Below, in pieces: positions 25,283 through 60,235 of a stretch of DNA of 64,000 bases (within the stretch, counting starts at the first letter, position 1; each line of letters opens with the position of its first letter). The notes beneath the pieces are model-generated. The model was not told the origin of the DNA. It saw only the letters and a program-made list of their open reading frames with translations, and ran no database searches. Position numbers and translations under genes: made by a program. Source of the DNA: Azoarcus sp. CIB (lineage in GTDB: Bacteria; Pseudomonadota; Gammaproteobacteria; Burkholderiales; Rhodocyclaceae); the NCBI RefSeq assembly GCF_001190925.1, contig NZ_CP011072.1, positions 3,720,001 through 3,784,000 on the forward strand, written 5' to 3'.

Positions 25283-25666
25283 TCACCACTCGGCAAAGCG
25301 CGTCCCGTCCTTTGCCGTGCCTTCGGCGCCGCTGTGCAGGTCCCACACCCCGGCCTCTTCTTCGCCCCGAGGGGGCTCGAGCAACCATGAGTCGCTGCGC
25401 TCCGTCACCGGGTCGACGGGAATCTTGCGCAGGTAGCGCTTGGCGACCAAGGTGTCGAGATCGTCGGGCCACTTGCCGATATCCGAGTGGTAGCGGTCGA
25501 TCGCATCGCGCACGACCAACAGCGTCTGGCGCAGGGACGCCTCGCGGCTGCGGTCCAGGTGCTCGAAATAGCGCGGCGCAGCGATCGACATCAGGGTCGC
25601 GATGATGGCCAGCACCACCAGCAGCTCGATGAGCGTGAAGCCGGTCACAGCCTTCCGGACCTTCAT
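25283..25666 (-). CDS. Type II secretion major-pseudopilin-like protein (GspG-like), 127 aa
   Basis: A class III signal (G/FTLIELLVVLAII) with the conserved Glu at +5 starts at residue 9. The C-terminal half carries the GspG-type YHSDIGKWPDDLDTLV and YLRKIPVDPVTER blocks, with a length close to GspG. It would be cleaved and N-methylated by a prepilin peptidase, which is not encoded in this window. The ATG gives an 8-residue leader; an upstream ATG would lengthen it and is less likely. Confidence 0.82.
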   Translation of the reverse strand: MKVRKAVTGFTLIELLVVLAIIATLMSIAAPRYFEHLDRSREASLRQTLLVVRDAIDRYHSDIGKWPDDLDTLVAKRYLRKIPVDPVTERSDSWLLEPPRGEEEAGVWDLHSGAEGTAKDGTRFAEW

Positions 25667-25691
25667 GCCGCCGCTACCATTCACGCCGTCC

Positions 25692-26171
25692 TTACCATTC
25701 ACGATAGGGCACGCCATTGAGTCCGCTGCGGGTCGATTTCGAATAGACGTCATACACGTCCTTGCCCCCCGCCGGCTCGTCGGGCGGGCTTGCGTAACTG
25801 CGCAGCCCCCACGTCTCGGCAGCCGGCACGGCCGGATCGGGATGAAAGGGGTCCCGCGGCAATCGGCGCAGGAAGTAGATGCGCTTGCCCGAGGGCGTAG
25901 TGACATCCGCCACACCTTTCACGAGGGACGCGAGATCCGGCGGGTAGCCCGACGCATCGACGCGCTGCTCGATGCGCTGCTCGACGTAGGCCGCCTTGTA
26001 CGCATCCAGTCCGGCACGAATCTGGCGCAGGGCGATGCGCAGTTCCGACTCCCGCTCGCGCTGGGCCGCCAGTTCGGCGAGCGGCATCGCCCCAGCCGCG
26101 AGGATTCCGATGATGGCAACCGTCACGACCAGCTCGATCAGGGTGAATCCGCGCGCCACGAGGCCCCTCAC
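25692..26171 (-). CDS. Type II secretion pseudopilin-like protein, 159 aa
   Basis: Another pseudopilin with a short leader (MRGLVARG) and FTLIELVVTVAII with Glu at +5. It shares with its neighbour the RQIRAGLDAY...YPPDLASLV segment and FLRRLPRDPFHP, so the two are paralogues, both GspG-like. It begins with GTG that overlaps the secretin stop by 4 bases (GTGA). Confidence 0.82.
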   Translation of the reverse strand: MRGLVARGFTLIELVVTVAIIGILAAGAMPLAELAAQRERESELRIALRQIRAGLDAYKAAYVEQRIEQRVDASGYPPDLASLVKGVADVTTPSGKRIYFLRRLPRDPFHPDPAVPAAETWGLRSYASPPDEPAGGKDVYDVYSKSTRSGLNGVPYREW

Positions 26172-28585: not shown

Positions 28586-29094
28586 GGATTCTGGCGATTG
28601 AGAGTCTGCATTTTCTTGAGCGGCAGATAGGTGAATTCGACTGCGGAAGAGGTAATGCGCTCGACACGGTAACGGCCTGCGATTTCCTCTCCGGGGCGCG
28701 CCATGCGGACTTGCGCACCCTCGAGCAGAAACACGGCCTTGCCCTGCGCGTCGTCGATCGCGCCGACATAGCGGAACGGCAGTGGCGGCGCCTGCGGCTC
28801 GGCGGGGGCCAACGCTGCGAGCGAAGGCGGAGGTGGCGCGAAACTGACGATGCGCGCCAGCGGCTCGGCAAGTTCGGGCCACGGCGCCCGCTCCGCATCG
28901 AGCCTGGCCATGCTCCCTCCGGGTGATGACGGCGAATCGGCCGATGCCCTCGCCCCGGCGGCGACCTGCGCCCGGGTCGCACGCTCGACGGGCTGCACCA
29001 CGACGAGGTCACCCGAATCTTCATTGACCGCCCACCAGCTCGCGACCAGCGTTGCCAAGAGGGCGGCAGCCAGGAGAACCTGGCGCATTGTCAT
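28582..29094 (-). CDS. GspC/PilP-like inner-membrane protein, 170 aa
   Basis: One N-terminal membrane helix (VLLAAALLATLVASWW), a Pro/Ala-rich linker and a C-terminal small domain beginning FRYVGAIDDAQGKAVFLLEG, which resembles the HR/PilP domain that contacts the secretin periplasmic part. It overlaps its neighbours on both sides by 4 bases. Position directly before the secretin gene supports a role linking inner-membrane platform and secretin. Confidence 0.65.
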   Translation of the reverse strand: MTMRQVLLAAALLATLVASWWAVNEDSGDLVVVQPVERATRAQVAAGARASADSPSSPGGSMARLDAERAPWPELAEPLARIVSFAPPPPSLAALAPAEPQAPPLPFRYVGAIDDAQGKAVFLLEGAQVRMARPGEEIAGRYRVERITSSAVEFTYLPLKKMQTLNRQNP

Positions 29095-29762
29095 GAGCGC
29101 CCCCGCAGATAGAGTTGCAGGCGAATATCCGCCTCCACCGTCGCCGCATCGCTCGTCTCGCGCTTCAGACTCACCGACTCCAGCGCAATTTCGGGCATTT
29201 CGCGCAGCAGCGCGCCGAGCCAGACGTAGAGCGCCTCCGCGTCGGCCTGCACGGGAATCGTGAGGCTGACGAGCGTCAGCGGCGTGCCGGTCACGACGGT
29301 GCTGCGGTAGTCGGCACGCTGCACGCTGATACCATGGGCCGCGGCGTGTTCGTTTAGGCGCCGCAGGCTGTCGGGCAGCGCGCTTACCGGCGGGAAACGC
29401 TCGAAAAAATCCATCAGCCGGGTGCGTCCGTCTTCCCCCGGAGCCGGCGCGCTTGCGCTACGCTCGATCCGGCCCTGCTCCGCCGCAAGCTCGGCGACGC
29501 GGCGATCGTTGTCCGCGCGTGCGACGTATCCCCCCAGTACAGCGGCCGCCAGCAGGACGACGCCAAGCGCGCCGGGAAGACCCGCATTCATCGCGAGGCG
29601 CCCGACAGACTCCCTGGCCAGGCGGAAGGACGGCCCGCCGCTACGCGGCAGGTTCCCTTGCGGCACGGCGACCCCGGCAACCTCGCCACCGCCGGTCGCA
29701 GGCGCGATCGCTGCGAGGGGACGGGGGCACCAGCAGCGCACGAAGATACCAGCGCCGGGCAT
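29091..29762 (-). CDS. PilO-like assembly-platform protein, 223 aa
   Basis: A bitopic inner-membrane protein with a hydrophobic helix at about residues 64-80 (GALGVVLLAAAVLGGYVA), a coiled-coil stretch and a C-terminal ferredoxin-like domain typical of PilO/GspM (TLVSLTIPVQADAEALY). The N-terminal 55 residues before the helix look non-conserved; the ATG is set by a TGATG overlap with the previous gene, and an upstream ATG at 29780 is an alternative. Confidence 0.65.
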   Translation of the reverse strand: MPGAGIFVRCWCPRPLAAIAPATGGGEVAGVAVPQGNLPRSGGPSFRLARESVGRLAMNAGLPGALGVVLLAAAVLGGYVARADNDRRVAELAAEQGRIERSASAPAPGEDGRTRLMDFFERFPPVSALPDSLRRLNEHAAAHGISVQRADYRSTVVTGTPLTLVSLTIPVQADAEALYVWLGALLREMPEIALESVSLKRETSDAATVEADIRLQLYLRGRS

Positions 29763-30304
29763 CACGGGCGTCCGCTCCATTTAGCATTCACGGTAAATCG
29801 CACCGCATTCTCGGCATCGACACGCACCCATTCGTAATTCGCCAACTGCGCCTCACGTATCCCCTGCACGGCCCCGAGTCGGGCCACGAATTCGAACATT
29901 TCCGCCAGCGAGCGGGCCTGTCCCGCCACCGCGAGCGTGCCCCGCGCCTGATCGGCCTGCAGGTCCAGCCACGTCACGCCCTCACCTTGGCCCCCCGCCA
30001 CACCGCCGAGCATTGCCCCCCAGTCGGCGTTCAGGCGTGCCGCAACACCGAGGGCGGCTTTCTCTTCCTCGGCACCCACCGGGTTCCTTTCCGCCGCGGC
30101 CTCGGGCAGTGCGCGCCGAGCCGCTTCGCGCGTGCGCGCCACAGCCGCCTCGCGTGCGTCGATCTCGGCACTTGCACGGCGGAATTCCGCAAACTGAAGT
30201 GCGCAGGCAAGCAGCCCCGCCGCGAGCAGTCCCCAACCCGCGGCGCTCACGCGCCGGCGCGTTTGCAGAAAATCGAGATCGATCGGGAACGGAATCCGTC
30301 TCAT
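29762..30304 (-). CDS. PilN-like assembly-platform protein, 180 aa
   Basis: A PilN/GspL-C type bitopic membrane protein: short cytoplasmic start (MRRIPFPIDLDFLQTRRR), one helix (VSAAGWGLLAAGLLACAL), a coiled coil with Ala/Glu/Arg repeats and a small periplasmic domain. The N-terminal segment is the usual docking peptide for PilM. ATG overlaps the preceding stop by 4 bases. Confidence 0.7.
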   Translation of the reverse strand: MRRIPFPIDLDFLQTRRRVSAAGWGLLAAGLLACALQFAEFRRASAEIDAREAAVARTREAARRALPEAAAERNPVGAEEEKAALGVAARLNADWGAMLGGVAGGQGEGVTWLDLQADQARGTLAVAGQARSLAEMFEFVARLGAVQGIREAQLANYEWVRVDAENAVRFTVNAKWSGRP

Positions 30305-31029
30305 CCTTCCCACCCTTCGGCGTGCAGCGCGACCTTGCGCCATCCGGCAGGAACCCGCGGCCCCTCCCCGATGCAATACAGAACGCCGGCTTCGCCCTGA
30401 GCCCCCGAACGCAGCGCCTGCGATTCCAGGTACAAACCCAGCGACGTATCCCCGGCCGGCCCCTGCGGCTGGCTGCGCAAGGACTGCCACTGCGCGTCGC
30501 GCCAGAATCCCAGCGTGACCCGCCCGCCACGTTGCACCGCCAGCGCGCCGAACGGGTTCTCAAGTTCCGGACGCACGCGGTTATAGGCGGCGAGGAACTC
30601 GCCCGTAACGCTACCAAAGCGCAGCCGGTGCTCCCTTCCCCACGCAGCCACCGCCTCGACGTGCGCGGCAGGCACAGCGCACGCGATGACGGGAAAATCC
30701 GTGGCGCCGCGCTCGACGACGATGCGCCACTCGGGCGCCCCGACCCCGTGCACCTCCCTGAAACGGAGCGCAACGAAGGCCTCGCGCTCGGCCCCGCCGC
30801 GCAGGCCGGGCGGCCATTGGATGATCAGATAGCGCACCACCGCATCGGCGAACAGCACGTCCCAGCGCGACCCGCGCTGCACCCCGCCATCCGGTGCCGC
30901 GGCCAGCGCAGCCAGGGCGGCATCGGGCGCCCACTCGTAGGCCAAGCGTTTTTGCGTCGCGCCGTTCCCGACGCGGATCGCATCCTGCTCGATCAGCAGG
31001 CGGCGGACCTCAGCCGAGAAGCGTGACAC
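30301..31029 (-). CDS. PilM/GspL-like cytoplasmic protein, 242 aa
   Basis: No transmembrane segment is seen and the gene lies between the ATPase and the PilN-like gene, where PilM or the cytoplasmic part of GspL belongs. It is shorter than PilM (about 350 aa) and I do not see the clear actin-like ATP-binding motifs, so the function is assigned by position. The GTG start has an ideal GGAGGTGAATC before it and overlaps the ATPase gene by 20 bases. Confidence 0.55.
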   Translation of the reverse strand: MSRFSAEVRRLLIEQDAIRVGNGATQKRLAYEWAPDAALAALAAAPDGGVQRGSRWDVLFADAVVRYLIIQWPPGLRGGAEREAFVALRFREVHGVGAPEWRIVVERGATDFPVIACAVPAAHVEAVAAWGREHRLRFGSVTGEFLAAYNRVRPELENPFGALAVQRGGRVTLGFWRDAQWQSLRSQPQGPAGDTSLGLYLESQALRSGAQGEAGVLYCIGEGPRVPAGWRKVALHAEGWEG

Positions 31030-32683
31030 GATTCACCTCCTGCAGCGTGGTTTCCCCGGCGGCGGCCACCGCGAGCGCCGCGTCGCGCAGACCGCGGAAT
31101 CCGTTGCGCCGGGCCGCTTCCTTGACCGTCCGGATTGGTGCGCGGGCGACGATCAACTCGCGGATCTCGTCGTCGAGCAACAGCACTTCGGCGACCGCAC
31201 GCCGGCCGCGGTAACCCGTCCCGCGACACTGGCCGCAGCCATGACCTGCACGGAAGCGGAAACCGCTCGCATCGCCGATGCGCGAGCGCGCGATCAGCTG
31301 CGCGTCGGGCGGCACATCCTCGGTACAGTGCGGACAATTGATGCGCAGCAGGCGCTGGGCGACGATGCCGTTGAGCGCGGCGACGAGATTGAACGGATCG
31401 ATCCCCATGTGCATGAATCGCCCCATGACGTCGAAGACGTTGTTCGCGTGCACGGTGGTGAACACGAGGTGGCCGGTGAGTGCCGCCTGCACCGCGATCT
31501 CCGCCGTTTCACCGTCGCGGATCTCGCCGACCATGATCTTGTCCGGGTCATGCCGCAGGATGGACCTCAAGCCGCGCGCGAACGTCAGCCCCTTTTTCTC
31601 ATTCACCGGGATCTGCAGCACGCCGCTGAGCTGGTACTCGACCGGATCCTCGATCGTGACGATCTTGTCCAACCCCTGGTTGGTCTCCGCAAGCGTCGCG
31701 TACAGCGTGGTCGTCTTGCCCGAACCGGTCGGCCCGGTGACCAGCAGCATGCCGTAGGGTTCGCTCGCGAGGTGACGCAGCGCGCCCCGGGTCTCGTCGT
31801 CGAAACCCAGCGTCTCCAGTGTCAGCCCGCTCATTTCGCGGCTGAGGTGCTCCTTGTCGAGGATGCGCAACACGGCATCCTCGCCGTGGATGCTGGGCAT
31901 GATCGAGACGCGGAAGTCGATCTCGCGCCCGCCCGAGCGGACCTTGAAACGGCCATCCTGCGGCACCCGGCGCTCGGCGATGTCGAGTTCCGCCATCACC
32001 TTGATACGGGAAATGACCTGCTCCGCGAGCTCGTTGCCCTGCGCGCTGCCGACGCGCACCAGCACGCCGTCAAGGCGGTACTTGATCACCAGCCCGCCGG
32101 GGACCGACTCGAGGTGGATGTCGCTCGCGAGCTGCTTCAGGCCATCGTAGAGGGTCGAATTGACCAGTTTGACGACGGGGCTGGCGTCGGCGCTGATGCG
32201 CTTGAGCGACAGATCCTCGACACCGTCCCCCTCGACGCCCTCCTCGCGCGACTCGATCAGTCCGGCCGCCCGGCGGACCTCGTCCTCGTGACGCGCCAGG
32301 CAGGCCGCGAGATCGTCGTGGTCCACGAGCACCAGCGCATAGGCTTCGCCGAGACGCCCCCCCAAACCGTCGAGCAGATCGGAGTCAAAGGGATCGGCGA
32401 TCGCCACCAGCAATCCGCCGTCTTCGTCGCGCAGCGCCACGCATTCGCGGCTCAGTGCCATCTCGAACGGAATAGCGTCGAAGTCGGGCTCCAGCGCCAT
32501 CAGGCGCCCGTGCCCCATCGACGCAAGCCCTAGGGAGCGGGCCAGCCGTGCGACGCGAACAGCCGGATCCGATTCCAGCTTCGCAAGTCCGTCGACGACA
32601 CGCTCGCCGCCGGCGACTGCCGTCGCCATCTCAGCGGCGGAAAAGGGGGCGGTAGCTGGCTCCACCGACAACGATTCGCTCAT
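31010..32683 (-). CDS. GspE/PilB-like secretion ATPase, 557 aa
   Basis: Hexameric cytoplasmic motor of the system. The N-terminal N1E-like domain (residues 1-150) precedes the ATPase core: GPTGSGKTTTLY (Walker A), IMVGEIRDGETAEIA (Walker B), an Asp box (TIEDPVEYQL) and His box (TTVHANN). A tetracysteine zinc module (CPHC ... CGQC) is present, as in GspE and PilB. ATG overlaps the gspF-like stop by 4 bases. Length is typical for GspE. Confidence 0.87.
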   Translation of the reverse strand: MSESLSVEPATAPFSAAEMATAVAGGERVVDGLAKLESDPAVRVARLARSLGLASMGHGRLMALEPDFDAIPFEMALSRECVALRDEDGGLLVAIADPFDSDLLDGLGGRLGEAYALVLVDHDDLAACLARHEDEVRRAAGLIESREEGVEGDGVEDLSLKRISADASPVVKLVNSTLYDGLKQLASDIHLESVPGGLVIKYRLDGVLVRVGSAQGNELAEQVISRIKVMAELDIAERRVPQDGRFKVRSGGREIDFRVSIMPSIHGEDAVLRILDKEHLSREMSGLTLETLGFDDETRGALRHLASEPYGMLLVTGPTGSGKTTTLYATLAETNQGLDKIVTIEDPVEYQLSGVLQIPVNEKKGLTFARGLRSILRHDPDKIMVGEIRDGETAEIAVQAALTGHLVFTTVHANNVFDVMGRFMHMGIDPFNLVAALNGIVAQRLLRINCPHCTEDVPPDAQLIARSRIGDASGFRFRAGHGCGQCRGTGYRGRRAVAEVLLLDDEIRELIVARAPIRTVKEAARRNGFRGLRDAALAVAAAGETTLQEVNRVTLLG

Positions 32684-33855
32684 CGAATGCTCTCTGCAAG
32701 CATGAATATCGGAATGTACATGAGCACGACGATCAGGCCGATCGCGCAACCGATCAGCAACATCAGCAACGGGCCGAACAGGCGCGTAAACCACTCTACC
32801 TGCCGCGCTGTATCCTCCTCGTGAAATTCCGCCGCGCGGGTCAGCATTTCGCCCAGATTCCCGGCATGTTCGCCGACCTCCAGCATGCGCAGCGCAACGG
32901 GAGTCGTCAGGCCGCGCGCCGCCAACATCGACGAGAAACTGCGTCCCTCACGAATCGCCGAAATGGCAGCAGCCAGACTTGCCTGCAGCGGCGGCGAAAG
33001 CAGCCCCGACACCATCCCCAGCGCCGTCACGACCGGAATACCTCCCGAAAGCAGCATGCCCACGGTCCGGTAGAAACGTGCAAGCTGGAACACCCGCATG
33101 CGTTCGCCAACGAACGGCATCCGCCACATGTAGCGCCCGACCGTCGCCCACAACACGGGGCTGCGTACGACCATAACCCCAGCCCCCAGAATCGCCAACA
33201 CGGCCATCCCGAGCAGCGCGGCGTGCCCCTCGACGAACTGCCCCCACTCCAGCAGAAGACGGGACATCCACGGCAGGTTGGTCCCCACGTTCTGGTAAAT
33301 GTGCGAGAAACGCGGCACGACGTAACCGAGCAGGAACAGCACCACCAAGCCACCCACACCGACGAGCAACAAGGGGTAAATGGCCGCACTGATCAGCTTG
33401 TCGCGCAGGCGCTCGCCATCCTGCTGGTAAGCGATGTACCGAGCAATGGCCCGCTCCAGGTCGCTGGTGCGCTCAGCCGCACGAATCAGCGCGACATACA
33501 GGGGCGGAAAAGCCTGCGGCGCCGAATCCAGCGCACTCGACAGGCTGCGTCCTTCACGCAACGCATCACGCAGCCCCTGCATCACCGACCTGATCGCCGG
33601 CCACCGCTCCTTCTCGGCGAGAGCAGAGATTGCCTCGGCAAGGGGAATACCCGCTCGCAACAAAGCCAACAGCTGCTGGTTGAACAGGAGCAGCGGAAAT
33701 CGCCCACGACCCCGACCACGCTCCAGCGCCTTGAGCGAAAGTACGGACAAGCCCCGCGCCTCGGCCAACGCGCGTACATCCGCCTCGCACCCGGCCTCAA
33801 GCTCGGTTTCGACGACCGCCGCGTTCGCCCCGAGCGCCCTGACACGATAACGCAT
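32680..33855 (-). CDS. GspF/PilC-like inner-membrane platform protein, 391 aa
   Basis: First gene of the operon. Two homologous T2SSF domains (about residues 60-180 and 265-385) each follow the pattern LLRAGIPLAEAISAL and LLSGGIPVVTALGMV, with three membrane segments (around 160-185, 210-235 and 365-388). This is the rotor or platform contacted by the ATPase. The ATG lies after a weak purine stretch; upstream no other start fits. Confidence 0.87.
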   Translation of the reverse strand: MRYRVRALGANAAVVETELEAGCEADVRALAEARGLSVLSLKALERGRGRGRFPLLLFNQQLLALLRAGIPLAEAISALAEKERWPAIRSVMQGLRDALREGRSLSSALDSAPQAFPPLYVALIRAAERTSDLERAIARYIAYQQDGERLRDKLISAAIYPLLLVGVGGLVVLFLLGYVVPRFSHIYQNVGTNLPWMSRLLLEWGQFVEGHAALLGMAVLAILGAGVMVVRSPVLWATVGRYMWRMPFVGERMRVFQLARFYRTVGMLLSGGIPVVTALGMVSGLLSPPLQASLAAAISAIREGRSFSSMLAARGLTTPVALRMLEVGEHAGNLGEMLTRAAEFHEEDTARQVEWFTRLFGPLLMLLIGCAIGLIVVLMYIPIFMLAESIR

Positions 33856-34888: not shown

Positions 34889-36112
34889 ATGGTCAAAGCG
34901 AAAATTCTCTTCTTCGCCGAAGGTGCGACGCTCGCACATGTCGCCCGGCCGTTTGTTCTGGCGTCCGGACTCGATCCACAACGATTCGACGCCGTATTCG
35001 CTCGACCGGCGGCATTCGGCTGGCTGACTGCGGGAGCCCCATTCAAGGTCCTTCCGCTTGAGTGCCAGGCAACGTCAGTCTTTTCCCGCCGGCTGGAGCA
35101 TGGCTTTCCCCTGTACGACATCGATACGCTTGCCCGCTATGTCGAGGCGGACCACACCCTGATCGATGCCGAACGGCCTGACGTCGTAGTAGGTGATTTT
35201 CGCCTGTCGCTGTCGGTCAGCGCGCGCTTGCGCGGCGTTCCCTATGCAACGATCTGCGATGCCTACTGGAGCCCCGAGCGTCCCCTGCAGACGCCCATGC
35301 CCGCTCTTGCCTTAACCCGTTTTGCCCCGCTCTCAATCGCGAACGCCATATTTCGGAGGATTTCTCCGCTTGCGCTGAAAATGCACGCGCGGCCGATGGA
35401 GGTGCTGCGGGCGCGTCACGGACTTCCACCCCTGGGCCACGACCTTCGGCGAAGTTATACGGATGCCGATCTGCGGCTGTTCGCCAACTTTCCCGAATTG
35501 TTTCCGGAAGTCCGTGAAAGTGCCACGGCAAGATTTATCGGCCCAATTGCATGGTCGCCCGACGCTGCTGCCCCTGTGTCATTCGAGGACGGCACGGACA
35601 CTCCCCTGGTTTACGTCACCATGGGCAGTTCGGGCGATCCGCGCGTGCTGCGGGATCTGATTCCCCTACTCGACGCGACCGGCGCGCGCGTACTGTTGGC
35701 CTCTGCGGGCAAATCCCTGCCGGCACAATTCACGTCCCAACGAACCCGCGTTTTCGACTACCTTCCCGGTCAACTGGTGTGCGAGCATGCGGATCTCGTG
35801 GTCTGCAACGGAGGCAGTCCGACTACCAACCAGGCCCTGACGGCAGGCGTTCCCGTGCTGGGGATCGCCCGAAATATGGACCAATTTCTGAACATGCAGG
35901 CCATCGAGCGCTTTGGCGCCGGTCTTCTCGTGCGCTCGGACCGCGCGAGCGCTGCCGTCCTGCAGCAGGCAATAACGAGACTCCTTGGAGACCCGAGCTT
36001 CGCCGCTTGCGCGCATCGCCTGCGCGAGGCCGCGGCAAGTAATCCTCGACGATCCGACCTTGCGCCTCACCTCGAACAATTGATCGCCGGGCGAATCCTG
36101 CCCACAACCTGA
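34889..36112 (+). CDS. GT-B glycosyltransferase (UGT/MGT-like), 407 aa
   Basis: Resembles glycosyltransferases of the family-1/MurG-like group that act on lipids or small molecules. The N-terminal acceptor domain starts KAKILFFAEGATLAHVARPFVLA; the C-terminal nucleotide-sugar domain has VYVTMGSSGD, DYLPGQLVCEHADLVVCNGGSPTTNQALTAGVPVLGIARNMDQ, the UGT-like signature with Asn-Gly-Gly and the donor loop. No signal peptide. It follows the transglycosylase by 57 bases and is likely part of the exopolysaccharide or glycolipid functions of this region. The acceptor cannot be named from the sequence. Confidence 0.75.
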   Translation: MVKAKILFFAEGATLAHVARPFVLASGLDPQRFDAVFARPAAFGWLTAGAPFKVLPLECQATSVFSRRLEHGFPLYDIDTLARYVEADHTLIDAERPDVVVGDFRLSLSVSARLRGVPYATICDAYWSPERPLQTPMPALALTRFAPLSIANAIFRRISPLALKMHARPMEVLRARHGLPPLGHDLRRSYTDADLRLFANFPELFPEVRESATARFIGPIAWSPDAAAPVSFEDGTDTPLVYVTMGSSGDPRVLRDLIPLLDATGARVLLASAGKSLPAQFTSQRTRVFDYLPGQLVCEHADLVVCNGGSPTTNQALTAGVPVLGIARNMDQFLNMQAIERFGAGLLVRSDRASAAVLQQAITRLLGDPSFAACAHRLREAAASNPRRSDLAPHLEQLIAGRILPTT

Positions 36113-36146: not shown

Positions 36147-36186
36147 CAAAAACCGCGCTGCCGGGCGGTTTGCCCGACAGCGCGGT
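36147..36186 (-). terminator. Terminator after the PepA-like gene (minus strand)
   Basis: A strong stem ACCGCGCTG-CGGGC / GCCCG-CAGCGCGGT with one mismatch lies 24 bases after the stop of the minus-strand gene, followed on that strand by TTTTTG. On the plus strand no T-tract follows, so it mainly serves the minus-strand gene. Confidence 0.85.
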
Positions 36187-36209
36187 CGTGTGTGGCCGGC
36201 AGACGCCGG

Positions 36210-37934
36210 TTACTTCAGGTCAAAGCCGGTCAGCGGGTGGATCTGGAAGTTGCCACCATCGATGTAGCCATATACCTCGTAGATCTTGTCGGTCTTGTTG
36301 AGTCCCTCCACGTCGCCATTGGCGTCGAGGATGACCTTCCCGTCGGCATCCACTGCGGGTTGCACGCCCTTGTAGATAGTGATCCGGTAGAAGTCTGCGC
36401 AACCGCAATCGGCGATGTTGTCGGTGACCGGCGGATCCGCGAACGGGTTGTTACCGGATCCGGTCGGCGGGCAGTTTGCCCCGGGAATCGGCGTGTTCGG
36501 GTTCTCGCTACCCCCCTCCCCAAGATCCTCGATGTGCACCTGGAACCAGTGATAAGTCGGCACAGACTGAGTCGGGCGTTGCCCCTTCGGCTCGGGGATA
36601 ACCTCGTCGATCCCGTCGAAGATCACTCCGTCGCTCGCGGTGAAGGTGTTGTTGCTGATATTGCTGAAGGTACCCACGCCAACGAAGTCGATCTGCTTGT
36701 TCGGCGCCGGGCGCGCCTGTTCGCACCACCCCTCATCGGTACAACGGATCTCATCGATCTGTGTGCCCGCCGGAGCGTTCCGTCCGCCATGGAACGCGAA
36801 GCTCAGACCACTCGGGCTGCTGTGGTTGTTGTGTTCCCACTGGCCCTTCGGTTGCGGTGGCAAGGCCGTATTCGCACCGGCCTGCCCGCCGAATGAATAG
36901 TCATAGTAATCGGTCACGGTGCTCGACTTGGCGGCCTTGCCTCTCGGCTTCAACAGCACCGACGGCTTCAGGGAGTCGGCAGCAAAGGTTCCGTCCCATC
37001 CGCCTTCGGCTACGTTGATCCCGGAAGTATCGTTCCCGCCGCCGGTCACCCGACATGCCTGCGCCGTCGGAATGAACGCGAAGTTGTTGCTCGCATCGGT
37101 CTGAAGCAGCATCTCAGGCCCGGTCGCACCGTTGATCGCGCCAACTACTGCGGCATCGACGCCCGAATCCGTCTCAAAATTCTGCGAAGGATTGGTTTCC
37201 AGATACGGTACGTTCTGCTGGGTCGTAAAATTCAGTATCGTGCCTGGCTCAACCCCGCCCTTGAAGAATTCGGGATCTGCTTCCTGCACCATCACTGCGA
37301 TGCTTTGCGACCCCTGCCCCCTCACCGTCTGCGTACCAGCCCAGTTGTCGGTACCGAACTGGTCGAGCAAGCCTACCGAGCCATCGACTCCGAAGTTGCC
37401 GACGATCTCGACCACCACGCCGCGCAGAATCTGCCTTCCGTCGCCATAGCCGAGGCCGCTCAGCGACGCGCCCTTGCTACCCGAACCGTCAGTCAGATCG
37501 TCGTAATACAGATAAAAGAAGTTGCTCTGGGAAGTTCCGTCGAATGCGAAGGTCGCTACCGAACCGCTCGCATTGGTAGTGACCGTCTCACCCGAGCCCG
37601 CGATGTAGGTCAGTTCAAACGTCGAATTGAAGCCGGTCGGATCCGGATAGGGATCACCACCGGGATTCAACAGGCCGCTAAGGGCTCCGTGAACATAGGT
37701 CTGGACGGACTTCGTATTGGCTACACCAAGCGGAATCGCAGGAGCTCCGCCGGCAGGCGCGGTAACCAGGGCATTCCCGTTGCCCCAGTCGAAGGCACTC
37801 ACCGATTGTGGCTGATTCGATCCATTACCGTCCGGATCGAAAAGGATTAGGCTTGCGGCCCCCGCATCGCCCATCGCTACGAACAGAGGAACCAGCGCGA
37901 TCGCGCCAGAACCCAAAATCCTTTGAAGTTTCAT
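36210..37934 (-). CDS. Secreted PepA-like protein without a PEP-CTERM tail, 574 aa
   Basis: An extracellular protein with an N-terminal signal (MKLQRILGSGAIALVPLFVAM...GAA) followed by LFDPDGNGSNQ. Residues 40-320 parallel the upstream PEP-CTERM protein: AFDWGNGNAL, FYLYYDDLTDGSGSKGASLSGLGYGDG, NWAGTQTV, and TDASNNFAF. The C-terminal 250 residues are new: SFAFHGGRNAPAG, several Cys (CRVTG, RCTDEGWC, NCPPTG, DCGCADF) and no sorting tail. It may be released rather than anchored. AAGGGG precedes the ATG, but the site lies inside a small hairpin. Same family as flocculation-associated PepA from memory; function not proven. Confidence 0.65.
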   Translation of the reverse strand: MKLQRILGSGAIALVPLFVAMGDAGAASLILFDPDGNGSNQPQSVSAFDWGNGNALVTAPAGGAPAIPLGVANTKSVQTYVHGALSGLLNPGGDPYPDPTGFNSTFELTYIAGSGETVTTNASGSVATFAFDGTSQSNFFYLYYDDLTDGSGSKGASLSGLGYGDGRQILRGVVVEIVGNFGVDGSVGLLDQFGTDNWAGTQTVRGQGSQSIAVMVQEADPEFFKGGVEPGTILNFTTQQNVPYLETNPSQNFETDSGVDAAVVGAINGATGPEMLLQTDASNNFAFIPTAQACRVTGGGNDTSGINVAEGGWDGTFAADSLKPSVLLKPRGKAAKSSTVTDYYDYSFGGQAGANTALPPQPKGQWEHNNHSSPSGLSFAFHGGRNAPAGTQIDEIRCTDEGWCEQARPAPNKQIDFVGVGTFSNISNNTFTASDGVIFDGIDEVIPEPKGQRPTQSVPTYHWFQVHIEDLGEGGSENPNTPIPGANCPPTGSGNNPFADPPVTDNIADCGCADFYRITIYKGVQPAVDADGKVILDANGDVEGLNKTDKIYEVYGYIDGGNFQIHPLTGFDLK

Positions 37935-37944
37935 GACAGCATCC

Positions 37945-38004
37945 CCTTGTGAGTACAAGGGCTCGAGTGATGCTGATTGGGTACAACATCAGCGCCCTCG
38001 AGCC
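37945..38004 (-). promoter_or_regulatory. Two adjacent hairpins in the leader of the tail-less PepA-like gene
   Basis: A small stem CCTTGT / ACAAGG (37945-37960) contains the ribosome binding site of the downstream gene. Beside it a longer one pairs GGCTCGAG with CTCGAGCC, and inside GCTGAT with ATCAGC (37960-38004). They lie in the 121-base gap between the two PepA-like genes. No T-tract follows, so they are more likely translational control or processing structures than a terminator. Confidence 0.5.
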
Positions 38005-38055: not shown

Positions 38056-39180
38056 TCATACGGTCCTTCTCCGCGACGAAACGCGGCCGATGCCGAGCAT
38101 CACGAGCGTCAGGCCCAGCAGCGCGAGGCTCGAAGGCTCGGGCACGGTAGTCCGGAACGAGTTGCTCGCGTCGGTCTCAAGGATGCAATCCGGACCATTG
38201 ACGCAGTTGATCGTGCCCAGACTGATCCCACCACCCGCCAGAGCCAGCGCGCCACCACCGAGGTCCGTGTCGAAGGACTTCGACGGGTTCGTGTCATCGA
38301 CGGGGAGGTTGTTGCGGGTCGTGAAGAACAGATCCTGCGATAGCGCGGTGATCAGCGACTTGAAGAAGTTGGAATCTTGGAACGTGACATCCACTTCGAT
38401 CGAGGTCGAACCTTCACCGTAGGCGGTCAGTTGCCCTGCCCAATCGTCACCGTTCGCGCTCTGGTCGAGCAGGCGGTCGGCGTTGACCGGATCGCCGGTG
38501 GCGGGATCAATCGCAGCTTCCTCACCGGCGTCGTAGGTCCCGTTGCCGTTCGTATCAACGAAGAACCAGTTCGATGTGAAGGTGCCGGCGCTCGTGAACT
38601 GCGAAACGGTACCTGACAGGATCAGCGTGCCGTCATCGAAGCCGAGACCGGTGAGCGAGCTGGCCTTCGTCCCGTCGCCGATCACGTCGTCGTAATAGAC
38701 CGCGAAGAAGTTCGTGGTGCCAGTCGTATCCAGGTTCAGGTTGATCGTGCTCGTGAACTGGTAGACGTCATCGGTGGCATCAGCCGGCGTTCCGCCGTCG
38801 CTGACCAGAGCGATCGTCGGCGCTCCCGCAAGCGTCGCAGTTTCCGCAAAGCCCGCGATCGCGGTGATCTCCCAGGTCGTGTTCATGTTCGCCGGATCGC
38901 CGACCGGGTCACCACCCACGTCTGTAAAACCATCCAGCACCGCATGGGTATACAGATTGAATGACGTACCAGTGGTGGGAATGCCCTGATCGATCAACGC
39001 GGACGATACTGCCCAGTCGAACGAGCCATAGGTCTGCGTGTTCGTGTTGGCGTCGGTCCCATCGGCGTCGAACAGGACGGGATCCGACTGAGCGAAGGCG
39101 GGCATCCCCCACCCCAGAGCCAGGGCAAGGCCTGCCGCAATCGCGCTGGAACGGATGCGGCGCGGAAGTTTTTTGGTCAT
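38056..39180 (-). CDS. PEP-CTERM protein, PepA-like, 374 aa
   Basis: An exosortase substrate. A signal peptide (RRIRSSAIAAGLALALGWGMPAFAQ) leads into LFDADGTDANTNTQ and a secreted beta-rich domain with FAVYYDDVIGDGTKASSLTGLGFDDG. The C-terminus is a full PEP-CTERM signal: VPEPSSLALLG, a hydrophobic helix and an Arg-rich end (SSRRRTV). Exosortase cleaves after such tails and attaches the protein at the cell surface. ATG has AAGGAG 8 bases upstream. The family resembles the flocculation protein PepA of Zoogloea-type bacteria as I recall it; that name is tentative. Confidence 0.85.
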   Translation of the reverse strand: MTKKLPRRIRSSAIAAGLALALGWGMPAFAQSDPVLFDADGTDANTNTQTYGSFDWAVSSALIDQGIPTTGTSFNLYTHAVLDGFTDVGGDPVGDPANMNTTWEITAIAGFAETATLAGAPTIALVSDGGTPADATDDVYQFTSTINLNLDTTGTTNFFAVYYDDVIGDGTKASSLTGLGFDDGTLILSGTVSQFTSAGTFTSNWFFVDTNGNGTYDAGEEAAIDPATGDPVNADRLLDQSANGDDWAGQLTAYGEGSTSIEVDVTFQDSNFFKSLITALSQDLFFTTRNNLPVDDTNPSKSFDTDLGGGALALAGGGISLGTINCVNGPDCILETDASNSFRTTVPEPSSLALLGLTLVMLGIGRVSSRRRTV

Positions 39181-39250
39181 GGCGAGACTCCTTTTTTGAG
39201 GGGTTGCCGATTCGGCACAGGGGCGATTCAACGCCCGACGCCCAAATAGG

Positions 39251-39266
39251 AGCAAATTCCACGCCA
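39251..39266 (-). promoter_or_regulatory. Sigma-54 (-24/-12) promoter of the PEP-CTERM gene
   Basis: The minus strand reads TGGCGTGGAATTTGCT, matching TGGCACG-N4-TTGCW with GG and GC exactly 10 bases apart. It lies about 71-86 bases before the ATG, leaving a leader near 60 bases. PrsR at 60-61.6 kb in the same window is a sigma-54-type activator, so it is the likely regulator of this promoter. Confidence 0.75.
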
Positions 39267-39410: not shown

Positions 39411-40067
39411 TCACCGGAGGCGACGCGCCGGGTTACCCCCCCAAACCTCGCCGGCATGGACATGGATGCCCTTTGTGAGGACGGAACCGGCAGCAATGAT
39501 TGCGCCGTCCTCGATGGTCACACCCGACATCACAATCGACTTCGCTCCGACGGTAACCTTGGAGCCGATGCGAATTTTTGCGTGAGCCAGGCGCTCCCCT
39601 TCCATGGCATGAGAGAAGAGCACCGCATCGTGTCCGATGATCGTATTCGAGCCGACCTCGGTCAGGATCGGATCGAGGATCACCCCCGCACTGTACGTGT
39701 CCTTGCCCAACCGAGCGCCTAGAGCCAGATAGATGACACGCATGAGCGGCACCGGAAGAACATGGTTGCGGGTGATCGGATAGAACAGCAGCAGAAAGAA
39801 CAGCACATATACGTTGTAGGTGAACTCGTCGCGCGACCCCGGTGTGATGTCCCCCTCGCGCAGCGGCATCACGGAGAGGAAAAGCCGATACACGACAATC
39901 GCGAACGCATAGAACGTGATCACGAAAATGCCGCACAGCACGACACCACGAAAATCGCCCAGCGGCAGCTTGCCGGCCAGCGTCGATGTGGTGAGGGCGG
40001 CACCGGCGGCGGCAACGGCGACAAGAATCAGAAAGATGAGGATCTCCGACACTCCGATCTTGCGCAT
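39411..40067 (-). CDS. Membrane-bound left-handed beta-helix acyltransferase, 218 aa
   Basis: N-terminal hydrophobic segments (about residues 8-30, 40-65 and 87-110) are followed by hexapeptide repeats from about residue 115 (VGSNTIIGHDAVLFSHA, IRIGSKVTVGAKSIVMSGVTIEDGAIIAAGSVLTKG, ending VWGGNPARRLR). That is the fold of O-acetyl or acyltransferases, here anchored to the inner membrane. It looks like the terminal part of Pls/PosA-type NRPS proteins, which also join membrane helices to this fold. It follows the nitroreductase gene on the same strand after 122 bases. Confidence 0.72.
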   Translation of the reverse strand: MRKIGVSEILIFLILVAVAAAGAALTTSTLAGKLPLGDFRGVVLCGIFVITFYAFAIVVYRLFLSVMPLREGDITPGSRDEFTYNVYVLFFLLLFYPITRNHVLPVPLMRVIYLALGARLGKDTYSAGVILDPILTEVGSNTIIGHDAVLFSHAMEGERLAHAKIRIGSKVTVGAKSIVMSGVTIEDGAIIAAGSVLTKGIHVHAGEVWGGNPARRLR

Positions 40068-40189
40068 TCAGGATGCCTCCTAGAGAGAAAGCCCGCAGGC
40101 TCCGGTTTCCCACTTGCTCGCGCAAGAATCGGACGCCGTTCGCATTCCCGAGCATTACAGGGGAAGCGGCGAGGTCCTGCCGGTCGCAG

Positions 40190-41266
40190 TCACGGCTTCG
40201 TCATCAGCTCGTCGAGGCTCCGCCGAATCGAGCGCGAGACAGGTTGGCTCGCGCTCCCCACTCGACAGAAAAAGGCGAACGGATCCGTCGCTCCACTGCC
40301 ACTCAGCGCATCGAAGCGGCCGGCAAGCAGGCGCACGGCGTCATCAATTCCAGGCTTGGCGGATAGCGGACGAGCCGCTTGGGCATACCAGCGAAAAATC
40401 ACCGGTGTCATCTGTGGCTGAAGGTACAAGCCGAGCGCCGCAACGGTCAGCCAGAGCCTCTGCATCGCAACCCCGGCTGCAACGTAGTCGCCGTGCGTAG
40501 TCAACGGCCTCCGCGGACGAAGAAGCACGTGGGCCGCACATGCCATTGCCGGAATGAAATCGAGCTGGATGCGAGGGGCAACCGTTCCCAAAAGGTAGCG
40601 ATTGAAGAACTCTACACGCGCCCAGCTCTGCATCACCCATCGCATCAGCCTCGCCGTCATCGGATCGACGCCGACAGCCTCCTCAGGGATACGATCCGTG
40701 CTGAAGCGGGCTCCCCACTCGATGATCTCTTTGTGCACGGCGTAAGCTTCCGGGCAGGTCAAGCGGACTTGAGCGCTTCCCCAAAGCAGCCTGGCCACTT
40801 CGAACCGTTCGGCCAACGACTCGAAGAACTGCACCTGAAAGCCGGGACCGGTTGCAGCAACCAGGCGCTCGCGCTGCGCCGCGCTGAGTGGCGTGGTATG
40901 CATCGGTCGGCGCTGGACCACTCGCGTCTCGATGTGTGACAGCAACGGATCGGCTGCCAATCCGGGGGCCTCGTGCAATTTGACGTCGTAGACCGGCGCC
41001 GTGGCGGCGCAGCCGGCACGAATGGTCCAGCGCGCATCGAGGCCGAAACCCGTTGCAGCGATGCGTAAAGTCTCAAGCAACGCGCCGTGTGCCATGTGGC
41101 TAGGCCGACCGTCGAAGTCATACAGGCACCAATCGCGCGTATCAAAGCCGCGAACCACGATGTGGTCGCCCGAGACGACTTCGAAGCGCCACGGTTGCGT
41201 GTTGTCCCCGCTCGGAGCCCAGCGCGCGAGGTCAAGGATATTGAACAAGATGTCCCGTTCAGCCAC
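40190..41266 (-). CDS. Nitroreductase-family protein paired with ThiF, 358 aa
   Basis: An FMN-binding nitroreductase-like enzyme. The N-terminal block ILDLARWAPSGDNTQPWRFEV is the classic flavin site; later blocks include THGDYVAAGVAMQRLWLTVAALGLYLQPQMTP. Such proteins reduce or oxidise heterocycles, amides or quinones. The GTG start overlaps the ThiF stop by 8 bases and has AGGGGG in front. In mycobacteria the Rv1355c-type protein joins ThiF and nitroreductase domains; the split pair here probably corresponds to it. Confidence 0.75.
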   Translation of the reverse strand: MAERDILFNILDLARWAPSGDNTQPWRFEVVSGDHIVVRGFDTRDWCLYDFDGRPSHMAHGALLETLRIAATGFGLDARWTIRAGCAATAPVYDVKLHEAPGLAADPLLSHIETRVVQRRPMHTTPLSAAQRERLVAATGPGFQVQFFESLAERFEVARLLWGSAQVRLTCPEAYAVHKEIIEWGARFSTDRIPEEAVGVDPMTARLMRWVMQSWARVEFFNRYLLGTVAPRIQLDFIPAMACAAHVLLRPRRPLTTHGDYVAAGVAMQRLWLTVAALGLYLQPQMTPVIFRWYAQAARPLSAKPGIDDAVRLLAGRFDALSGSGATDPFAFFCRVGSASQPVSRSIRRSLDELMTKP

Positions 41267-42149
41267 GTTGCGCCCCCTGCTCGCGCATTCGCCGCAACTG
41301 CCTGCGTCCAATCCACAGCCCCAGGCGTTGAAGAGGGTTCCGATTGCCACCCGGGCGCCATGTGCGGACCATCCGGTTCCGGTACGCGTCGAACTGGTAG
41401 CCCCACGGCGCAGCGCGCACCTTGCCCCGGTCTAGAAGAATCTTCAGCGACTCGGCCGCCGTCACTCCCGCGCAAAGCTGGCAAGCAATGATCGTCGAGG
41501 GGCCCCGCCGCTCGCGCAGATTGACGCGCGACGGGTCCGCAAGATACGAACGCTGGAGCATGCCCGGCGACAAACCCAGCAGAAAGCGGATCGACATTTC
41601 CTCCTCATCGCAGCCTTCGAGACAGAAATACTCCTCGAAACTCATTTGCCCCGGGAGGAAGACAAGCACGGCCGTTCCCATCCCGAGTGGCGCCGCGGTC
41701 ACAGCCGGAATGCCGAGGCGGTGGCAGGCAGCGAAAGTTGCGCGGCGGATGCCGAACGAGAAGAAATCGAGGCCGTCCACGTAAAGATCGACATCCTTCA
41801 GGAATTCGTCGAGGTTCGCATCCGAAAGGCCTGTTGGGAAGCGATGCAAAGCGATTTCCGGGTTGATGTCGAGCGCCATCTCACCCAGGACGTCCACCTT
41901 GGGCCGCCCAACCGAAGACATCATCGCCCCCGCTTGGCGATTGAAATTGACAAGATCAAAGGTGTCGAAATCGGCGATGTTGAAGGCACCGATCCCAAGG
42001 CGCGCGAGGGTCAGCAGATGCACGCCACCAACGCCCCCCATCCCCGCAATGGCGATGCGCTTTCCGCGCAGTGCTGCCTGCTCCTCCGCGGTCACCCAAC
42101 CTAGGTTGCGGGCAAACGCAGCGTCGTAATCGAATAATGTATCCACCAT
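41259..42149 (-). CDS. ThiF/MoeB-like E1 adenylyltransferase, 296 aa
   Basis: An ATP-dependent adenylating enzyme of the E1 superfamily. The nucleotide loop GMGGVGGVHLLTLARLG is near residue 35, then DFDTFDLVNFNRQ with the arginine that contacts ATP, VDGLDFF and, late, CQLCAGVTAAESLKILL. Only one CxxC pair is seen, so the usual structural zinc may be absent. No ubiquitin-like or sulfur-carrier protein is adjacent, so what it activates is unknown; a carboxylate on a small molecule or peptide is possible. ATG has AGGGGG upstream. Confidence 0.78.
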   Translation of the reverse strand: MVDTLFDYDAAFARNLGWVTAEEQAALRGKRIAIAGMGGVGGVHLLTLARLGIGAFNIADFDTFDLVNFNRQAGAMMSSVGRPKVDVLGEMALDINPEIALHRFPTGLSDANLDEFLKDVDLYVDGLDFFSFGIRRATFAACHRLGIPAVTAAPLGMGTAVLVFLPGQMSFEEYFCLEGCDEEEMSIRFLLGLSPGMLQRSYLADPSRVNLRERRGPSTIIACQLCAGVTAAESLKILLDRGKVRAAPWGYQFDAYRNRMVRTWRPGGNRNPLQRLGLWIGRRQLRRMREQGAQRG

Positions 42150-42207
42150 ACCCCCTGATCGCTCCCCGAATCCATCATAGAGAATTCGGCCCGCGAGAGA
42201 AACCACG

Positions 42208-42220
42208 ACGCAACTTGCGT
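42208..42220. promoter_or_regulatory. 13-bp perfect palindrome in the ThiF/N-acyltransferase divergent region
   Basis: ACGCAA-C-TTGCGT is an exact inverted repeat 59 bases from the ThiF ATG and 167 bases before the divergent acyltransferase start. It has the size of an operator for a dimeric regulator controlling both directions. A TATGAT -10-like element for the plus-strand gene is at 42274-42279. Confidence 0.45.
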
Positions 42221-42386
42221 ACGGAGTCTTCCAGCGCGGAATTTGGCACACACCGGGAAACGTGAAGATGGACTATGATTAGGCACGAAGAATAGCTGCA
42301 CCGAAGGCCCCCCGGGCGGATTGAACAAGCGAATCCCTGCTGGCCTGGCGGCCCGACTCATCACCTTCCCCGACAAGGAGATCGCG

Positions 42387-43154
42387 TTGCTCCTGTTCGA
42401 CCGATTCAATCTCGGCCACGGATTCAGGAAGTACTTCGAGATCCATCCGGCAACCGACGACGCGCTGCGCGACTCCGTGTACCGCATTCGGCACGAGGTG
42501 TATTGCGAGGAACTCGGCTTCGAGCCGGTACGTCCGGATCGACGTGAAACCGACGAATACGACGCACACAGCGTGCATTGCCTGTTGCGCACGAGTTCGG
42601 AGCCCGCTAGACCGGTCGGGTGCACGCGCGTCGTGCTGACAAGGACTGACGATCCGGACTCCCCCCTGCCCTTCGAGCGTACCTGCGCCGCAACGCTCGA
42701 CCGCTCGATCATCGACCCGTCCCGCCTGCCTCGCGAGCGGATCGCCGAGGTCTCCCGACTGGCCGTGCGCTCGACCTATAGGCGCCGACGCGGCGAGTCT
42801 TCGGCCGACGCGCCGATCCACGCCGAGGACTTCGGCACGACAGTCCACCCCCGCTTCCCGTACATTCCGATCGGCCTGTATCTGGGCGCAATCGCGCTTG
42901 CCGAGCGCGCCGGAATCGAAACGCTCTTCATCCTGACCGAGCCTCGTCTGGCCTCGCATTTTGCGAAGCTGGGGGTCGATGTCCGGCAGATCGGCGGGCC
43001 TGTCGAACATCGAGGCACCCGTATTCCGTCGATGATGGACGTTCAAGGCATCATCAAGGGCATGCGTTTTCTGCTGAAACCGATGTGGCGGACGATTCAC
43101 GAAGAGATCGAAACCGCTTACGAACGCGTAGCCCAGGCGGGACGCCCCACCTGA
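42387..43154 (+). CDS. PEP-CTERM/exosortase-associated acyltransferase (FeeM-like), 255 aa
   Basis: A GNAT-type N-acyltransferase related to FeeM and LuxI-type autoinducer synthases, a family found with exosortase systems. Blocks FNLGHGFRKYFEIHP, LRDSVYRIRHEVYCEELGFEP, RPVGCTRVVLTR, RERIAEVSRLAV and FPYIPIGLYLGAIALAERAG are in family order. It likely moves an acyl group from acyl-ACP to an amine. The TTG is chosen because AAGGAGATCGCG sits right before it and it gives the usual N-terminus; an upstream TTG at 42321 has no such site. A terminator follows. Substrate unknown. Confidence 0.78.
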   Translation: MLLFDRFNLGHGFRKYFEIHPATDDALRDSVYRIRHEVYCEELGFEPVRPDRRETDEYDAHSVHCLLRTSSEPARPVGCTRVVLTRTDDPDSPLPFERTCAATLDRSIIDPSRLPRERIAEVSRLAVRSTYRRRRGESSADAPIHAEDFGTTVHPRFPYIPIGLYLGAIALAERAGIETLFILTEPRLASHFAKLGVDVRQIGGPVEHRGTRIPSMMDVQGIIKGMRFLLKPMWRTIHEEIETAYERVAQAGRPT

Positions 43155-60234: not shown

Positions 60235-60235
60235 G

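Follow-up and report, generated by a model that had tools for sequence, protein, structure and literature searches.

A candidate N-acyl oxazolone or N-acyl dehydroamino-acid lipid pathway associated with XrtA/PEP-CTERM genes in Azoarcus sp. CIB

Genes at the locus

We analyzed 64,000 nucleotides of the Azoarcus sp. CIB genome (bases 3,720,001-3,784,000 of the single 5.26-Mb contig NZ_CP011072.1, hereafter the window), in which a gene for an N-acyl amino acid synthase (NAS) points away from minus-strand genes for a ThiF-type enzyme (the cyclase), a nitroreductase-superfamily oxidase, and a membrane-anchored hexapeptide acyltransferase. Features are listed in Table 1, in window coordinates. A first-pass annotation had named these four genes, and the window sequence, open reading frames (ORFs), and profile matches place all of them where it had put them: the hexapeptide gene follows the nitroreductase gene on the same strand, and the exosortase-associated N-acyltransferase is divergent from ThiF. 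The 8-base overlap reported between ThiF and nitroreductase also holds, given a nitroreductase start at GTG 41266 and a ThiF end at 41259. That start is consistent with the predicted structure, which is confident from residue 1, though the longest ORFs reach further upstream (from 41350 for the nitroreductase and 42251 for ThiF). The spacer between the divergent genes, given previously as 237 bases, measures 240 if NAS starts at TTG 42387 and ThiF at ATG 42146. An AAGGAG motif lies 6 bases upstream of this TTG, and the first ORF start of the A. evansii NAS likewise yields 255 aa.

No terminator-like site was found in the 122-base gap between the nitroreductase and hexapeptide genes, so a single transcription unit comprising the minus-strand genes from ThiF on is plausible. 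The hairpin at 36187-36151 has the longest stem among the terminator-like sites of the region, which overall occur at chance level (5 seen vs. 5.5 expected). No sigma-70 consensus site was found in the divergent region; a sigma-54 promoter there was considered and rejected, as the pattern matches 54 times in the window vs. a mean of 70.4 in shuffles, i.e., at or below chance.

Table 1. Genes and features of the window (aa, amino acids; profile scores where available).
Feature	Position	Strand	Remarks
EryCIII/UDPGT-like glycosyltransferase	34889-36112	+	PF06722, 70.9 bits
Terminator-like hairpin, end of minus-strand unit	36151-36187	-	16 pairs, 12 of them G-C; T-rich tail
Secreted paralogue of PepA-like protein	36210-37934	-	long C-terminal extension instead of PEP-CTERM
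PepA-like PEP-CTERM protein	38056-39180	-	PF07589; likely exosortase substrate
Hexapeptide acyltransferase	39411-40067	-	PF00132; membrane-anchored left-handed beta-helix; accessory, putative tailoring role
Nitroreductase-superfamily flavin-dependent oxidase	40190-41266	-	Acg-like single-chain type; predicted O2-dependent desaturase
ThiF	41259-42146	-	NF006077, 475.6 bits; nucleotide-site residues invariant
Divergent intergenic region, NAS vs. ThiF operon	42147-42386		sequence read
NAS, exosortase-associated acyltransferase family	42387-43154	+	255 aa from TTG 42387
NAS, longest ORF	starts 42321	+	
prsT, XrtA/PEP-CTERM system	57439-60258	-	TIGR02917, 865.8 bits
452-aa ORF between prsT and prsK	60236-61594	-	presumably prsR, by position only
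prsK, XrtA/PEP-CTERM system	61591-63672	-	TIGR02916, 854.5 bits

The NAS protein passes the cut-offs of TIGR03694, "PEP-CTERM/exosortase system-associated acyltransferase" (263.5 vs. 111.95 bits), and of the FeeM family PF21926 (30.8 vs. 27 bits). The top matches of its AlphaFold model (predicted local distance difference test, pLDDT, 87.5) are the coenzyme A-dependent N-acyl homoserine lactone (AHL) synthases BjaI and RpaI (E-value for BjaI 5.7e-10), with FeeM (2g0b) at rank 13 (3.9e-7). Glu143, numbered from 42321, is invariant in 76 of 76 aligned sequences and was equated with the FeeM/Nas354 glutamate by motif rather than superposition. The FeeM/AHL-synthase fold and a conserved glutamate are what would be expected of the acyltransferase of an oxazolone pathway, and both are present. 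Two related loci encode longer NAS proteins of 410-417 aa with an N-terminal NAS/FeeM match (L050, 15366-16619; L061, 9881-11113), the former additionally matching a cAMP-receptor-type regulator model; their domain make-up suggests that nucleotide-regulated NAS variants may exist.

ThiF reaches 139.1 bits with PF00899 and, against a cut-off of 266, 475.6 bits with NF006077/PRK08223. Its GxGGxG motif and residues D61, N67, N69, R70, K83, and D127 (A1 numbering) are invariant in 25 of 25 aligned sequences and align to the nucleotide site of MoeB/ThiF. An intact ATP site is thus combined with adjacency to an oxidase gene, as an oxazolone cyclase would require. That ThiF is instead a housekeeping MoeB/ThiF enzyme of cofactor synthesis would fit its superfamily and its best PDB sequence matches, which are MoeB and ThiF. 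However, the protein falls below the cut-offs of all MoeB/ThiF models listed in the NCBIfam scan in spite of its NF006077 score, and the genome has three further ThiF-family loci, one of them with a much better PF00899 score (258.4 bits); this already disfavored explanation strikes us as barely credible. The closest named relatives among the matches listed are from Aromatoleum evansii and A. tolulyticum, both with 92% identity in the best segment, which suggests Aromatoleum or a near relative.

The nitroreductase passes PF00881 (37.7 vs. 23.5 bits). Its structure model (pLDDT 95.4) is closest to the Acg homologue 2ymv (E-value 2.2e-14; template modeling score 0.69 by query length), with ordinary nitroreductases the next-best PDB match and far behind (8.0e-5), and this predicted fold identifies it as an Acg-like flavin-dependent oxidase. 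As in TrzAS, the tryptazolone system of Mycobacterium/Rhodococcus, there is a match to the Rv1355c family, here to that family's C-terminal half (E-value 1.4e-31); unlike TrzAS, the protein is not fused to ThiF, and it scores far under the family cut-off (NF005901; 109.5 vs. 476 bits), so that no Rv1355c-like single fusion is found here. Arg196 and Gln311 (ORF from 41350; 97% and 94% conserved) are candidates, by position offset only, for equivalents of TrzS Asp217/Arg540/Gln651. Apparent nitroreductase-hexapeptide fusions in three related loci (L121, L125, and L127; ORFs of 557-563 aa) were rejected as ORF over-extension: their upstream half is not nitroreductase, the true sequence of which lies in another frame.

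Distribution of the cyclase and its neighbors

Domain co-occurrence reportedly prompted the discovery of oxazolone synthetase. For the present families it was assessed in an evenly drawn sample of 369 genomes of the class to which the window belongs, with matches over the cut-offs of NF006077, TIGR02602, and TIGR03694 taken as cyclase (40 genomes), exosortase (110), and NAS (47), respectively. An exosortase is present in 38 of the 40 cyclase genomes vs. 72 of 329 others (Fisher 2.6e-20), NAS in 30 of 40 vs. 17 of 329 (1.2e-23), and an exosortase in 34 of the 47 NAS genomes vs. 76 of 322 (1.1e-10), all with genome size and phylogeny uncontrolled. Even at a 60% base rate, the probability of at least 38 exosortase carriers among 40 would be 5e-7; G360 and G098 are the two cyclase genomes without one. 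The link is strong in the direction from cyclase to exosortase. In the opposite direction it is looser. The first-pass annotation would have counted as refuting a lack of joint conservation of all four genes in exosortase genomes, and in this strict form the objection applies in part: of the 110, 38 have the cyclase and 28 have NAS as well, while carriers of the hexapeptide gene are few.

Azoarcus sp. CIB itself has the exosortase expected alongside a TIGR03694 member: XrtA lies in an exopolysaccharide (EPS)-type locus at contig position 4,118,753, and a second exosortase at 2061955. Within the window, prsT and prsK are ~14-21 kb from the NAS/ThiF/nitroreductase trio. The PepA-like protein scores 21.7 bits to PF07589 (cut-off 20.7), though it is not among the four matches of a whole-genome search with this model, and the ORF at 38056-39255 stays below the cut-off of the flocculation-associated floc_PepA model NF033554 (51.7 vs. 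80 bits). Its secreted paralogue (34% identity over 351 alignment columns, E-value 1e-40) has no PEP-CTERM by motif scan, and the corresponding 582-aa ORF (36210-37958, minus strand) has no Pfam or NCBIfam match; similar proteins are present in some related loci.

Gene neighborhoods were compared for 120 cyclase loci (39 from the class sample, the best 80 of at least 553 confirmed matches from named organisms, and the window); removal of the duplicates L112 and L137 left 118, of which 82, the window included, have at least 5.5 kb on each side. In these, core and accessory genes were counted by tblastn within 8 kb of ThiF, because over-long ORFs had hidden nitroreductases in an earlier ORF-based tally. 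The nitroreductase is found in 64 of the 82 loci and NAS in at least 55, a lower bound since tblastn misses long FeeM-type NAS such as those of L050 and L061; both are found in 39, with the same bound on NAS. We take this clustering to exceed chance. In 14 of the 39 class relatives, ThiF and nitroreductase are fused. The four genes of the first-pass annotation occurring together is a minority arrangement.

Where no NAS was tagged locally, the genome often holds a FeeM-family match. A FeeM-family match over the cut-off is present in 18 of 20 such genomes, with at least 78 bits in 16, and in two of them (G237 and G345) it lies less than 6 kb from the cyclase, indicating tagging misses rather than absent NAS genes. 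Five Oxalobacteraceae loci (L116, L119, L122, L132, and L138) have ThiF and nitroreductase with no local NAS tag and a FeeM-family match of >180 bits in each genome; in the complete chromosome of L132, this match is >1 Mb from the cyclase.

Further neighbors were taken from the ORF-based tally (77 loci with full flanks out of 111 unique ones), which may miss genes under over-long ORFs and in which families were named from one representative each. A PEP-CTERM-like protein is near the cyclase in 59 of the 77 loci, PrsT/R/K in 31, two or more XrtA EPS genes in 16, and any PEP-CTERM-like, Prs, or EPS gene in 67. Together with the exosortase co-occurrence, this bears out the association with exosortase/PEP-CTERM genes that the first-pass annotation had proposed. 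LolC/E-type permeases are found in 28 loci, MMPL-type transporters in 11, either in 39, a LolA-like protein in 23, and DUF1302 in 20. The PrsT and exporter counts may hold unrelated members, because single-protein profiles of promiscuous families (ABC ATPases, TPR, FtsX-type permeases) were used. In six Azoarcus/Thauera and related loci (L094, L095, L096, L100, L108, and L110), two genes tagged as LolC/E-type permeases lie between NAS and ThiF, an interval that in the window consists of the 240-base spacer only. On a Bdellovibrio plasmid, the cyclase is adjoined by a LolA-like gene, an ABC ATPase, and a MacB/FtsX-type permease.

PEP-CTERM-like ends are concentrated near the cyclase: by a custom-made motif scan that took every open frame, real or not, such an end is present in 87 of the 4512 ORFs located no more than 8 kb away vs. 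4 of the 601 more distant ORFs of the same loci; with shuffled ends, the mean is 2.25. This enrichment and the strong cyclase-exosortase co-occurrence are what one would expect if the oxazolone were a reactive acyl donor, attaching the N-acyl amino acid to a PEP-CTERM protein, to EPS sugar amines, or to surface amines. The co-occurrence could, however, reflect shared regulation only, and the exporter genes suggest a free lipid; we regard covalent attachment as improbable. The suggestion that the product is "attached or exported" thus finds indirect support for export, from the exporter genes near relatives, and nothing here that favors attachment to protein or polysaccharide.

A plasmid-borne gene of Nitratidesulfovibrio vulgaris (DVUL_RS15680; 5068-8037 of L172) encodes FeeM, ThiF, and nitroreductase domains in one 989-aa protein. 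Next to it are three PEP-CTERM genes as well as genes for an XrtA-system glycosyltransferase and a TPR protein. In another phylum, this fusion connects the three activities with one another and with a PEP-CTERM context. It also argues against the idea that ThiF and nitroreductase modify a ribosomal peptide or small protein (E1-like activation and oxidation of the azoline type) and that NAS has no part in this. Enzymes of both types are known from such pathways; on the other hand, the proteins match PRK08223/PRK14851/Rv1355c-type models, and no peptide-modification partner was recognized among the recurrent neighbor families scanned, which makes this explanation very hard to sustain. On a Rhodococcus qingshengii plasmid (L173, 1849-4732), an IS256-family transposase lies between a ThiF gene and one for a GNAT N-acyltransferase; the stretch covered there has no annotated nitroreductase.

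The hexapeptide protein passes PF00132 (41.2 bits) and has a hydrophobic N-terminal part. Among 280 genomes of the order, its gene is found in 11 (E-value 1e-20 or better) and the cyclase in 47; 10 of the 11 carriers also have the cyclase vs. 37 of 269 non-carriers (Fisher 7.2e-8), and in nine the two genes share one contig, at most 22 kb apart. The remaining two are G399, with the genes on separate contigs, and G406, without cyclase. This co-occurrence marks the hexapeptide gene as an optional member, a rare yet genuine accessory of the cyclase locus, which upholds its earlier inclusion in the pathway; an obligatory partnership is ruled out by its presence in 11 of the 280 genomes and, within 8 kb of ThiF, in 13 of the 82 loci. 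The glycosyltransferase, the sole PF06722 match in the genome, is found near ThiF in 24 of the 82 loci and jointly with the hexapeptide gene in 11, and should be considered as a fifth member; the association between the two (9.6e-6) is indicative only, because many loci are close relatives.

Proposed pathway and published counterparts

The first-pass annotation called this a candidate uncharacterized pathway. Its core chemistry, however, has been described for Pseudoalteromonas, Mycobacterium, and Rhodococcus (PMC10404671; PMC12856293), as TyzABC, TrzAS, and OxzAB use the same three families. The M. tuberculosis enzymes are TyzA, which acylates the nitrogen of tyrosine, TyzB (ThiF), which cyclizes the product with ATP, and TyzC (nitroreductase superfamily), which desaturates it with O2; the tyzA gene points away from tyzB-tyzC (PMC10404671). 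TrzAS performs the tryptophan counterpart with a fused ThiF-oxidase, cyclization coming first (PMC12856293), and both papers also cover OxzAB of Pseudoalteromonas rubra, described as yielding tyrazolones/phenazolones. The acylation-adenylation-oxidation order proposed in the first-pass annotation is close to this mechanism, except that the ThiF step as published is an ATP-dependent cyclization to the oxazolone rather than an activation for attachment. The same chemistry has been proposed for three further compound families, and in kyonggic and thalassotalic acid producers the NAS, ThiF, and nitroreductase genes overlap or are near-adjacent, while Massilia umbonata, whose candidate clusters are described as lacking ThiF and nitroreductase, made only saturated products (PMC12479983).

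We consider it likely that the locus encodes a pathway for an N-acyl oxazolone/N-acyl dehydroamino-acid lipid, linked to exopolysaccharide formation by the XrtA/PEP-CTERM system. NAS would acylate an amino acid, by analogy with the known systems probably an aromatic one, with a fatty acyl group; ThiF would use ATP to activate the carboxylate and cyclize the N-acyl amino acid to a 5-oxazolone; and the Acg-type flavin oxidase would insert the alpha,beta double bond using O2. We infer these three reactions for this organism by homology. The gene context further suggests that the hexapeptide acyltransferase and glycosyltransferase tailor the lipid or its ring-opened form, the former by O-acylation and the latter, which is more loosely tied to the locus, by glycosylation. 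A Lol-type or MMPL-type exporter, such as those of relatives, might then move the lipid outward to join the PEP-CTERM/EPS matrix of flocs or biofilm.

ThiF, NAS, and nitroreductase all pass Pfam cut-offs, and the first two also NCBIfam cut-offs; the divergent layout of NAS and ThiF-nitroreductase is the same as that of tyzA and tyzB-tyzC (PMC10404671). Several observations weigh against the proposal. XrtA is ~356 kb from the trio, and next to the trio an ABC ATPase was tagged in this genome but no Lol/MMPL permease. The nitroreductase falls short of the Acg-family model NF047509 (111.3 bits vs. a cut-off of 199). Within 8 kb of ThiF, the nitroreductase is missing from 18 of the 82 loci and a recognized NAS from 27, i.e., the module is often split, and both hexapeptide acyltransferase and glycosyltransferase are minority partners. 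Finally, with 72 of the 110 exosortase genomes lacking the cyclase, there is no tight two-way link.

The end product may be different. According to a variant of the proposal that we find quite possible, and whose probability overlaps with that of the proposal itself, the oxazolone is transient, serving only to raise the acidity of the alpha-proton so that the oxidase can act, and is then hydrolyzed to a linear N-acyl dehydroamino acid of the kyonggic/thalassotalic/stieleriacine type. Producers of linear N-acyl dehydrotyrosines share the three families, with oxazolones reported as not observed there (PMC12479983); TrzS requires cyclization ahead of desaturation, and the tryptazolones themselves are labile to acid (PMC12856293). 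By contrast, the oxazolone itself was seen in cell extracts of M. smegmatis and Rhodococcus (PMC12856293), and C12:0-tyrazolone in those of M. tuberculosis (PMC10404671); no hydrolase was recognized at the locus.

TyzABC resembles the present system in organization, with separate N-acyltransferase, ThiF cyclase, and flavin-dependent oxidase and a divergent acyltransferase gene; the FeeM/BjaI-like acyltransferase and Acg-like oxidase folds are also shared, the likeness to TyzA being by description rather than sequence. The surroundings differ: cysK1/cysE and mmpL9 are the neighbors described for Tyz (PMC10404671), vs. PEP-CTERM/exosortase context, hexapeptide acyltransferase, and glycosyltransferase here. 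OxzAB, again by description, shares the acyltransferase, ThiF, and nitroreductase chemistry, but has the last two fused where they are separate, overlapping genes here. In the kyonggic, thalassotalic, and stieleriacine loci, NAS, ThiF, and nitroreductase genes are likewise found together, and two producers of these acids have genes that overlap or are spaced by <10 bases; the Stieleria maiorica cluster as described includes a PEP-CTERM gene (PMC12479983; PMC7293339). Tailoring in Stieleria is by methyltransferases, unlike the hexapeptide acyltransferase and glycosyltransferase of the window. A class I methyltransferase gene is near the cyclase in 9 of the 77 loci of the ORF-based tally, which recalls stieleriacine methylation; loci with such a gene are L044, L059, L064, L065, L071, L098, L110, L144, L147, and L170.

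NAS genes adjoining PEP-CTERM/exosortase genes, as here, are credited to Craig et al. (2011) by PMC7293339 and PMC4897644, although the ThiF/nitroreductase pair goes unmentioned in the citing passages. In the Rubrivivax gelatinosus EPS cluster, UBA/THIF genes lie between ABC-transporter and polysaccharide-export genes, with no role stated in the passage concerned (PMC3684757). A linkage of ThiF, nitroreductase, and exosortase was not found in the open-license literature searched, where oxazolone and exosortase appear together only for methanobactin-like clusters, nor were the cyclase-exosortase co-occurrence, the hexapeptide accessory, or the recurrent glycosyltransferase and exporters; part of the cyclase-exosortase link may already be in print. 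A pathway so far described for three enzymes, plus methyltransferases in Stieleria, thereby gains candidate tailoring enzymes and exporters.

More speculatively, the oxazolone pathway could be a dedicated XrtA branch, in which an exported, glycosylated, and O-acylated lipid (dehydroamino acid or azlactone) serves as a hydrophobic component or covalent acyl anchor. We think this unlikely as a whole; if true, the lipid would hold PEP-CTERM proteins and exopolysaccharide together, or to the cell surface, in flocs or biofilms. With 38 of 40 cyclase genomes in the sampled class having an exosortase, the extracellular matrix of EPS-forming bacteria with loci among those compared (such as Aromatoleum, Thauera, Zoogloea, and Duganella) is a testable setting for questions about the lipid and about the exosortase system alike.

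Elsewhere in the window, positions 25283-33855 (minus strand) hold diverged type II secretion-like genes, whose GspD, GspE, GspF, and GspG matches are under the equivalog cut-offs.

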